Of a stretch of 64,000 nt of DNA, positions 13,173 through 63,997 are shown one piece after another. The notes beneath the pieces were generated by a model. The model was not told the DNA's origin. It saw only the letters and a list, made by a program, of their open reading frames with translations, and searched no databases. The position numbers and the translations under genes are program-made. How positions within the stretch are numbered: position 1 is the stretch's first letter; each line of letters starts with the position of its first letter. Source of the DNA: Leptolyngbya sp. FACHB-8 (GTDB taxonomy: Bacteria > Cyanobacteriota > Cyanobacteriia > Elainellales > Elainellaceae); the NCBI RefSeq assembly GCF_014695575.1, contig NZ_JACJOO010000084.1, positions 186,001 to 250,000 on the forward strand. The letters are read 5' to 3'.

Positions 13173-13273
13173 CGGATTTGATGTCAGTTACGAATCAGGG
13201 TGAATTTGAGATTACGTTTCAAATTGGGATGTTTTAATCGGAGTGGATCTGAGCAAATCTAAATCTATCCTCT

Positions 13274-14626
13274 CTAATTCTGTCTTTGTTGAGAGCTGTT
13301 GGCGCAGGCTAACGCCTGTTGAATCTGGTCGCGTAGAGCAGGAGGTTCTACTACATTCGTTACTCGTAAGGCATTGTCAGCTTGGCCCATTTCGTAGTAC
13401 ACCAGGGAAAAGGCAGCAGCAATGACATTACGTTGAGCACTGTCATCTTCTGTGTTTGCTAAATCTTCGGCTTGCGCCATGAGATCGGCAGCGCGTTCGT
13501 GAAATGCGTCCCCCGAAGAAGTACCCTCTGCTAAAGCAGCATATTGATTTGCGGCCCCTGCCACTATCATGGCTTTGAGATAGGGCTCTGTCACGACGTC
13601 AACATTGTTCAGGATGTAAGAAAGTGCTGTAGTGGCAGATTCTGTTTGCCCGGCGCGTACATAGGTAATAACAGCACCCGTTAGAAGACTGAGCGTTCCG
13701 TATTCCTGAGTGGGGAAAGTTTGCGCTAACTCAAACAATTCTGACGTTAAATCAGCGGCTTGCGATCGCCCCTCTTCCTGATCAAACCGGATATAAACTC
13801 CCACTAATCTGGCCAAAGCCCAGAACTGTAAGACATACTCCGCCTCAGATCTGGTTGCCAAATTTTTGTACACAGCGGTAGCCCGCTCCAAAGTGGCCGA
13901 AGCAGCGGCCTGTTGTCCCTGATCCCAATACTTCTCTGCAATTCGCAAGAGGGGTGATAACTGAGCCTCCTCATTCATTAGGCCAACCAGTTCTAATGCA
14001 GTTTCTAGCTGTCCCTCATTCCAGTAGCCCTGAGCAACATAAAACAATGCCTGATCCCGGATAGAACGTGCACCACTAAACGCAGCATAGGGCTTTTCTG
14101 GAGGTGTTTCTGTCAGGGTCAACGCGACTTCCCGAGCTTCATCTGTACGATTCTGAATGGAAAAGGCCCGACTAACCGCAAAGAGATTTTCGTTGCGTTG
14201 TGAGGCATCTTCTAAAGTCCTGGCAAATTCAACCGCTGCCGCTAAATTACCCTGTGCTAATAATTCGTTGACTCCTGGATGCAACCCAGGATCAGAACCA
14301 TTTCCTTGAATGTTAGAGCGATCGCTTTCCCCCGCGCTATCTAACAACGCTAGCAGCACGGTAGAAGACAACCCCATTAAATCGTTCAGGGTGGCTTCCG
14401 AGACCGGTATTGGTGGCAATGGACAAGCCGGGGTGAAAGCACCCAACATAATTTCTTGAAATGAGCTCCCTGAAGATGAACGTTCAGTCGACTGCACCCA
14501 CGGTTTCGCAGTAGCCGACTGAGCAAAGGCTATCAACCCAAGATGAATGGACAAATTCAGAATTATCCAAAGCAACCGTTTATGTTTCAATGACACCTCG
14601 AGAGACTTTCGCGTGTTAAAGAGCAC
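13274..14626 (-). CDS. Secreted helical-repeat protein of unknown function
   Basis: The 450-residue protein has an N-terminal signal peptide (HKRLLWIILNLSIHLGLIA, cleavage probably near ATAKP). The mature part is built of degenerate 35-40 residue helical repeats resembling TPRs: 'ALFYVAQGYWNEGQLETALEL', 'LLRIAEKYWDQGQQAAASATL'. Such arrays mediate protein-protein contacts, here probably in the periplasm. The GTG at 14626 gives a long n-region; a second GTG ten codons in (VSLKHKR) would give a more usual signal peptide. No neighbour suggests a partner. Confidence 0.7.
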   Translation of the reverse strand: MLFNTRKSLEVSLKHKRLLWIILNLSIHLGLIAFAQSATAKPWVQSTERSSSGSSFQEIMLGAFTPACPLPPIPVSEATLNDLMGLSSTVLLALLDSAGESDRSNIQGNGSDPGLHPGVNELLAQGNLAAAVEFARTLEDASQRNENLFAVSRAFSIQNRTDEAREVALTLTETPPEKPYAAFSGARSIRDQALFYVAQGYWNEGQLETALELVGLMNEEAQLSPLLRIAEKYWDQGQQAAASATLERATAVYKNLATRSEAEYVLQFWALARLVGVYIRFDQEEGRSQAADLTSELFELAQTFPTQEYGTLSLLTGAVITYVRAGQTESATTALSYILNNVDVVTEPYLKAMIVAGAANQYAALAEGTSSGDAFHERAADLMAQAEDLANTEDDSAQRNVIAAAFSLVYYEMGQADNALRVTNVVEPPALRDQIQQALACANSSQQRQN

Positions 14627-14753: not shown

Positions 14754-14806
14754 TTGAGAAGGTTGATTTTTCGTGCCCTTCGCACACGAAGAAGCAACCT
14801 TCTCAA
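14754..14806. repeat. Palindrome, 12-bp outer stem with inner hairpin
   Basis: TTGAGAAGGTTG (14754-14765) pairs with CAACCTTCTCAA (14795-14806), and TTCGTG pairs with CACGAA inside. An 11-bp direct repeat TTTTCAAGCAG (14705-14715 and 14810-14820) brackets the structure, which could be an old target duplication. Confidence 0.6.
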
Positions 14807-14863
14807 TAGTTTTCAAGCAGCTTCTCACACCCCATTCATGACTCCTATAATTCGGCAATCCAA

Positions 14864-14995
14864 CAGCAATTCTCATTTTGAAATCCAGCCCGAAAACCGC
14901 TCGCCATAAGCGAGCGGTTTTCGGGCTTCAAAGCCGAGAGTTCGTGCCTGTAGGGCACGAACTCTCGGCTTTGAAGCTCATAATGAGAATTGCTA
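14864..14995 (+). mobile_element. Family A Y-shaped palindromic element with 9-bp target duplication
   Basis: The ends AGCAATTCTCATT (14865-14877) and AATGAGAATTGCT (14982-14994) form a 13-bp closing stem. Inside are two hairpins: arm 1 at 14888-14904/14910-14926 (17 bp, 5-nt loop) and arm 2 at 14926-14948/14954-14976 (23 bp, 5-nt loop). The 9-mer GCAATCCAA is present directly outside both ends (14855-14863 and 14996-15004), a perfect direct repeat of the kind left by transposition. It encodes no protein. Confidence 0.88.
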
Positions 14996-15025
14996 GCAAT
15001 CCAAACTTACAGCGCGAGTTGATAT

Positions 15026-15059: not shown

Positions 15060-15704
15060 ATGAGAACATTACAGCAGGTTGCCCAGCTAGATCCCCACTG
15101 GTCACTGGAAGAATTGGTGCAGATAGCAAACGAACTACTACCCCAGTTTTTACCGGAGGAAAAGGCTCATACCCGTGTACGGGAAGAGGTCACACCTCGC
15201 CTTGTACGGCATTACACCAGTCAGGGCATGTTGGATGAACCGCTGAAGGAGGGGCGAGAAGCTCGTTATACTTACCGGCACTTACTGCAAGTGTTGTTAG
15301 TACGACGGTTACTAACAGAAGGTTACGGAGCCAGTGTGATTGATACCCTGGCGCGTTCAAAACCTGACCCAGACCTGGAGGCATTACTTCAGGGCGGCGC
15401 TCAACTCACCGTCACTCCAGCAAACCCGGCCCTGGCCTTTTTGCAACAAATTCAACAACGGCAACCAGACGCAGCTCGCCAGGCCCCGTTCAGTCCCCCA
15501 ATTGTATCACCGCCGCCCATTCCATCCCCATCCCCAAGCACAACACAGTGGACTCGGCTGGAGGTTTTACCCGGCCTGGAGTTGCACGTGCGCAGCGACT
15601 TTACTTTACCGACAACATCCCAAGAGCAACAAAACCTGCTCCAGCATATCTTACGCATTCTGACATCTCTTGCTTCCTCAAAACGGAGGTCTTCCCGCTC
15701 ATGA
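15060..15704 (+). CDS. MerR-like helix-turn-helix protein
   Basis: The 214-residue protein has a MerR-type winged helix at about residues 15-105. It contains 'VTPRLVRHYTSQGMLDEP' (recognition helix and wing) and 'RYTYRHLLQVLLVRRLLTEGY', which corresponds to the conserved Arg-Tyr and the helix before the dimerisation region. A proline-rich linker and a C-terminal segment ('LEVLPGLELHVRSDFTLP') replace the usual MerR coiled coil. The stop overlaps the ATG of the VWA-macro gene (ATGA), so the two are coupled, and a dyad lies just upstream. It probably controls its own operon. No metal-binding cysteines are seen, so the signal is not a metal by the usual route. Confidence 0.75.
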   Translation: MRTLQQVAQLDPHWSLEELVQIANELLPQFLPEEKAHTRVREEVTPRLVRHYTSQGMLDEPLKEGREARYTYRHLLQVLLVRRLLTEGYGASVIDTLARSKPDPDLEALLQGGAQLTVTPANPALAFLQQIQQRQPDAARQAPFSPPIVSPPPIPSPSPSTTQWTRLEVLPGLELHVRSDFTLPTTSQEQQNLLQHILRILTSLASSKRRSSRS

Positions 15705-45362: not shown

Positions 45363-45458
45363 CAGCAATTCTCACGATGAACTCTCGGCTTTGAAGCCTG
45401 AAAATAGCCCGCCGAAGGCGGGCTATTTTCAGGCTTCAATTCAAAACGAGAATGGCTG
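45363..45458 (-). mobile_element. Family A element with one arm deleted, minus orientation
   Basis: CAGCAATTCTC at left and GAGAATGGCTG at right are the terminal repeats. Arm 1 is intact (GCCTGAAAATAGCCCGCC, GAA loop, complement). Only the distal half of arm 2 remains (GAACTCTCGGCTTTGAAG). The flanks ACCCCACGA (45354-45362) and ACCACACGA (45459-45467) match at 8 of 9, consistent with an aged 9-bp duplication. Confidence 0.75.
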
Positions 45459-54562: not shown

Positions 54563-54694
54563 CAGCAATTCTCATTTTGAAATCAGGCCCGAAAACCGCG
54601 CGCCTTCGGCGCGCGGTTTTCGGGCCTCAAAGCCAAGAGTTCACGCCCTACGGGCGTGAACTCTTGGCTTTGAGGCCCATACTGAGAATTGCTG
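54563..54694 (+). mobile_element. Family A element with perfect 9-bp duplication, between tRNA-Asp genes
   Basis: CAGCAATTCTCA (from 54563) and TGAGAATTGCTG (to 54694) are the ends. Arm 1 is an 18-bp stem GCCCGAAAACCGCGCGCC with TTC loop. Arm 2 is a stem of about 23 bp with TCAAAGCCAAGAGTTCACG. AAAGATTAC lies directly outside both ends (54554-54562 and 54695-54703). Confidence 0.9.
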
Positions 54695-63855: not shown

Positions 63856-63865
63856 AACTTCTTTT

Positions 63866-63997
63866 CAGCAATTCTCATTTTGGAATCCAACCCGAAAATA
63901 GCCCGCCTTCGGCGGGCTATTTTCGGGCTTCAAAGCTGAGAGTTCCTGCCCGAAGGGCAGGAACTCTCAGCTTTGAAGCTCATACTGAGAATTGCTG
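63866..63997 (+). mobile_element. Family A element at the window edge
   Basis: CAGCAATTCTCATTTTG (63866) and CATACTGAGAATTGCTG (to 63997) are intact ends. Arm 1 is an 18-bp stem CCCGAAAATAGCCCGCC with TTC loop. Arm 2 is a stem of about 23 bp TTCAAAGCTGAGAGTTCCTG with GAA loop. Left flank ACTTCTTTT; the right flank begins ACT before the window ends, agreeing with a 9-bp duplication so far as visible. Confidence 0.85.

Follow-up and report, generated by a model that had tools for sequence, protein, structure and literature searches.

A hairpin-rich 132-bp element of Leptolyngbya sp. FACHB-8 as a probable MITE of an IS family with a predicted Tn5-like transposase

What placed a short element, bordered on both sides by the same nine bases, upstream of a MerR-type gene in Leptolyngbya sp. 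FACHB-8, and why does a sequence that encodes nothing hold two near-perfect hairpins? We addressed these questions in the window (the whole stretch of 64,000 nucleotides that was analysed) and in the genome from which it comes (G000, a 6.93-Mb assembly in 95 contigs). The locus is composed of the following features, each given with its basis.

14855-14863, no strand: left target duplication GCAATCCAA, 9 bp (sequence read, copy survey)
14864-14995, plus strand: MITE, 132 bp, non-coding (sequence read, genome copy count, flank survey)
14864-14880, plus strand: left terminal inverted repeat CAGCAATTCTCATTTTG, matching the 17-bp end of the IS exactly (comparison with IS ends)
14887-14927, plus strand: hairpin 1, 18-bp arms and 5-nt loop (fold, copy comparison)
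14925-14977, plus strand: hairpin 2, 24-bp arms and 5-nt loop (fold, copy comparison)
14979-14995, minus strand: right terminal inverted repeat TAGCAATTCTCATTATG in minus-strand reading, terminal base not the usual C (sequence read)
14996-15004, no strand: right target duplication GCAATCCAA, 9 bp (sequence read, copy survey)

The preliminary description had proposed a 132-bp element whose ends pair and enclose two hairpins, so that a single strand folds as a three-way junction; this was borne out with coordinates exact to the base. Its further observations, that a perfect 9-bp direct repeat lies exactly at the element borders and that the element itself codes for nothing, held as well (GCAATCCAA is found on both sides). 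The element begins with C-AGCAATTCTCATT and ends with AATGAGAATTGCT-A, its last base being A where most copies have G. Both hairpins are perfect (arms 14887-14904/14910-14927, 18 bp, and 14925-14948/14954-14977, 24 bp), and the 17-bp outer stem (14865-14881/14978-14994) is 94% paired, with one mismatch. The three-way junction has a computed energy of -65.6 kcal/mol as DNA (z -17.3), and the same fold computed as RNA gives -97.4 kcal/mol (z -17.1).

The window holds further members of the same family:

45363-45458, plus strand: shortened derivative of the same MITE, one hairpin partly lost (sequence read)
54563-54694, plus strand: second full copy, flanked on each side by target duplication AAAGATTAC (sequence read)
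63866-63997, plus strand: third full copy, target duplication ACTTCTTTT (sequence read)

Immediately next to the insertion of the third full copy is a truncated one, whose end lies near 63856. Two other features lie near the first copy. A separate imperfect palindrome of 53 bp (14754-14806, GAGAAGGTTG...CAACCTTCTC), found as a self-match, precedes it by about 50 bp, and a promoter-like site (14822-14851) ending in TATAAT stops 12 bp before the MITE at 14864. The insertion may have separated this site from the MerR-type gene at 15060.

Allowing at most one mismatch, the end sequence matched 158+156 (314) times in G000, compared with 3+3 (6) times for the reversed control, and this number of end matches suggests about 150 MITE copies. 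From these estimated copies we surveyed 93 distinct ones with their flanks. A 9-bp duplication exactly at the C...G borders was perfect in 61/93 and had one mismatch in another 18/93 (79/93 in total), whereas cross-paired flanks gave such a duplication (one mismatch or fewer) in 0.09% of cases. The duplicated 9-mers vary from copy to copy, and only a few of their positions mildly favour A/T. These counts support the insertion by a transposase that had been suggested from the single locus. With its shortness, lack of a transposase gene, 17-bp terminal inverted repeats and many dispersed copies with target duplications, the element has the traits of a prokaryotic MITE. Among 40 genomes searched for the element itself, matches were confined to G000 and G012, and a plasmid search found no element DNA in plasmids.

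The preliminary description had also asked for an empty site in a relative. Relatives of the MerR-type gene downstream of the MITE occur in G001, of the same genus, and in G027, and when the element and one 9-mer were removed, the join aligned from about 13 bases on the left, without a gap in G001 and with small gaps in G027. In both of these distant relatives, then, the alignment continues over the join with no element present, although only about 13 bases of it lie to the left; at this divergence, the sequence alignments are suggestive of an empty site, not proof of one. As no direct, good-quality empty site was found in relatives, these two weakly alignable loci and a nested insertion (L030, G000:C86:46137-49276) stand in for it. 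In the nested insertion, one MITE lies inside the end of an older MITE and duplicates AATTGCTGT, which is mostly part of the older element's known end. The nested pair sits between two near-identical segments that read as tRNA-like.

To find the source of the mobility, we scanned 390 cyanobacterial genomes for CAGCAATTCTCATTWTG, with the reversed sequence as control. It matched in 115 of them and the control in none. Some end pairs lie about 1.4 kb apart and delimit an IS with an open frame of about 446 aa. A search of public genomes gave 79 loci, many with exact 14-base ends and perfect 9-bp duplications; IS copies with identical ends and perfect duplications include L141, L142, L144-L146, L148, L150, L152, L153, L165, L167-L169, L173, L176, L178, L180 and L190, and L132 likewise has a perfect duplication. 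With lengths of about 1.4-1.6 kb, the IS copies span Arthrospira (sp. PCC 9108), Laspinema (L. olomoucense D3b), Leptolyngbya (sp. PCC 7375) and Pseudanabaena (P. biceps O153) as well as the deltaproteobacterium Desulfoferrobacter (D. suflitae, 1602 bp); in each of these, the ends are those of the MITE and the 9-bp duplication is perfect. The D. suflitae loci (L165, L167-L169) place these ends and duplications in another phylum, which suggests, from sequence, that the IS has been transferred between phyla. The similarity between IS and MITE is confined to the terminal 17 bp, where their ends agree; the MITE shares its ends with an autonomous element. In one genome, G296, an intact IS (L334, duplication GAGATTTAT) is present together with Y-shaped MITEs (L323, L327, L328, L331). 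A separate case is G174, where 116 end matches are exact and many stand at a distance of 110-140 bases from the start of a contig; six loci read there held no short element, and a larger repeat may carry these ends.

The IS transposase has a candidate DDE triad (D138, D227, E347) that is invariant in 26 sequences. Its predicted model (pLDDT 86) retrieved Tn5 transposase as the top Foldseek hits (E about 1e-10) and aligned to Tn5 with Z 22 over 357 residues, compared with 14 for the next fold, at 11-16% identity. On this predicted structure, the protein would have the Tn5 transposase fold with a DDE triad (IS4 superfamily). Its Pfam (DDE_Tnp_1) and NCBIfam (IS4) matches fall below the curated cut-offs, including the score that marks the IS4 family proper, and a PDB search by sequence found no relative. 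A homologue 48% identical to P0001 is a plasmid protein of Gloeothece verrucosa PCC 7822 annotated as 'ISNCY family transposase'. The IS family may belong to the ISMae2 group (ISNCY), which is marked by 9-bp repeats and CAG ends; 9-bp duplications and CAG ends are both present in its copies. In the literature searched, no relevant paper contained the end sequence.

The transposase gene bounded by these ends that the preliminary description proposed to look for is thus present in relatives, but G000 itself yielded no intact transposase. The sole trace found there is the following feature.

L133:1501-1599 (G000:C72:121607-121705): remnant of the IS transposase C-terminus, 33 residues

Three other candidates were rejected. 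First, the DDE_Tnp_1 genes of G000 were considered as the partner transposase, and none of their 7 loci has a convincing pair of matching ends. Second, IS copies might have collapsed at contig ends; each of the six contig ends of G000 that were read terminates within or next to a MITE, and none within an IS. Third, orphan end sequences were considered as IS traces, and the loci examined hold mostly truncated MITEs and no IS.

Since IS copies in relatives have identical ends and 9-bp duplications, we regard the element as a MITE mobilised in trans by this IS family. The transposase of the Tn5-like IS would act in trans on the 17-bp ends, probably by a cut-and-paste route if the predicted fold is a guide, and G000 would have lost, or no longer keep, an active enzyme. 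No intact transposase was found in G000, so the element is not necessarily active there at present, and descent from the IS by internal deletion has no sequence support past the 17-bp ends. Taken as a whole, with hairpins maintained by template switching as discussed below, we hold this reading to be very probably correct.

To examine the hairpins, we compared the 71 copies of exactly 132 bp. Despite variable arm bases, hairpin 2 is perfect in 57/71 copies and hairpin 1 is paired in 91% of cells, and several arm pairs show three or more Watson-Crick types (for instance, 35-53: CG 39, AT 22, TA 5). The loop tips occur in reverse-complement pairs (TTC/GAA and AAA/TTT in loop 1; GTA/TAC, GAA/TTC and GTC/GAC in loop 2). 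Among 27 independent (non-overlapping) nearest pairs, comprising 54 loops, 23 loops were the same, 19 exactly inverted and 12 otherwise different; inversion of a whole perfect hairpin and of the tip alone look identical in these data. The same pairs contained 5 compensated arm changes; a rough null that assumes independent sites averaged 0.30 and reached 4 at most in 5000. Exact reverse-complement loops occur between copies that are identical elsewhere. In G296, an unrelated hairpin pair on a 3.97-Mb contig shows the same kind of loop inversion (GTA/TAC, TAA/TTA), and an assembly artefact is therefore unlikely. Taken together, the inversion counts cover one draft assembly (G000) and nine copies of a second genome (G296). 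Template switching with arm homogenisation and spacer inversion has been described (PMC8794818, PMC8604942). The mutation pattern here points to polymerase template switching at the palindromes, in which one arm would be copied onto the other and the tip inverted, and loop inversion by this route looks close to saturated. The element is ordinary as a mobile element and unusual in its near-perfect internal hairpins, whose tips keep turning over.

Whether the Y shape also matters for mobility was considered in other genomes. In G012, G013 and G296, as in G000, elements of about 130-133 bp have these ends around two hairpins, whose sequences are unrelated; the Y layout recurs with unrelated arms in at least three other genera that carry these ends. 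The layout might then be an evolving module, in which template switching rewrites the hairpins, arms drift, pairing persists, tips flip almost freely, and the whole is kept because extrusion aids multiplication; we regard this as doubtful, if worth entertaining. We consider it unlikely that the Y fold is itself a selected part of mobility, with extruded hairpins joining the ends or exposing them single-stranded to aid the transposase. The recurrence of the layout with unrelated arms in these four genomes and the compensated arm changes would fit such selection. However, G046, G192, G062, G041, G021 and G187 have elements that share these ends and a perfect 9-bp duplication yet fold only weakly, and the Y fold is therefore dispensable for mobility; Tn5-type transposases, moreover, work on double-stranded ends as their substrate. 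Less likely again is that ordinary successive mutations under selection for pairing perfected the hairpins without any template switching. Compensated pairs are common, as such selection would predict, but it leaves the exact reverse-complement loops in otherwise identical copies unexplained.

The sites of insertion bear on a further alternative. A joined reading frame was hit by 7/81 insertions, compared with 55% of random positions nearby, and at least two of these seven (L229, L236), beside genes whose translations read as ilvD-like and FetB-like, appear to lie upstream of the likely true gene start. Such avoidance of genes would suit a hairpin domesticated as an RNA or for transcription control (as a terminator, attenuator or small RNA), which spread between genes because it was useful. 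Selection against gene disruption would also produce an intergenic bias, however, no Rfam family was matched at gathering score, and the 14864-14995 copy has no terminator-like site with a T run. We therefore consider domestication very improbable. Some copies are in tandem (L256, L017), as amplification of an immobile repeat by segmental duplication would produce, but the 9-bp duplications at the exact border in 79/93 copies, with 9-mers that differ, refute that explanation. At L256:1000-1272 (G000:C65, about 13223-13495), two tandem MITEs are accompanied by three copies of the 9-mer ACACTACAA, and by sequence the second MITE resembles a chimera in which two subfamilies meet in hairpin 2.

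As a MITE of an IS family with the predicted Tn5 fold, the element gives an orphan repeat a transposase family, and one that spans phyla, a deltaproteobacterium included. Template switching at palindromes is usually known from rare single events, and some 150 related copies, each with a pair of near-perfect hairpins, amount to a counted and replicated natural experiment on it. If the Y layout does evolve as a module, the copies would preserve, within one bacterial genome, a natural archive of template-switch events. A contribution of the fold to mobility, were it real, could help explain why other bacterial MITEs have internal hairpins.

Several known systems can be set beside the element. The IS family and the MITE are alike in their 17-bp ends and 9-bp duplication, but the MITE lacks a gene, and past the ends its sequence does not resemble the IS. 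Tn5 duplicates 9 bp of its target. The Tn5/IS50 transposase (IS4 superfamily) resembles the IS transposase in predicted fold, candidate DDE residues and this duplication, but the two are only 11-16% identical and use different ends. REP elements are linked to the REP-associated tyrosine transposase; REP, REPIN and BIME sequences are likewise high-copy extragenic palindromes, but they lack inverted ends with a target duplication of fixed length, whereas 79/93 copies here have the 9-bp duplication. Nezha, a Microcystis MITE and other cyanobacterial MITEs are similarly short, non-coding and mostly intergenic, with inverted ends and a target duplication. The Microcystis MITE (187 bp; PMC11448079) differs in its 8-bp duplications, its 9-nt ends and its ascription to ISL3. 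Finally, template-switch hairpins in RNA genes and yeast genes (PMC8794818, PMC8604942) share the compensated arm changes and the exact inversion of spacer or loop; there, these are rare events among many sequences, whereas here nearest copies differ by an inversion in about a third of their loops.
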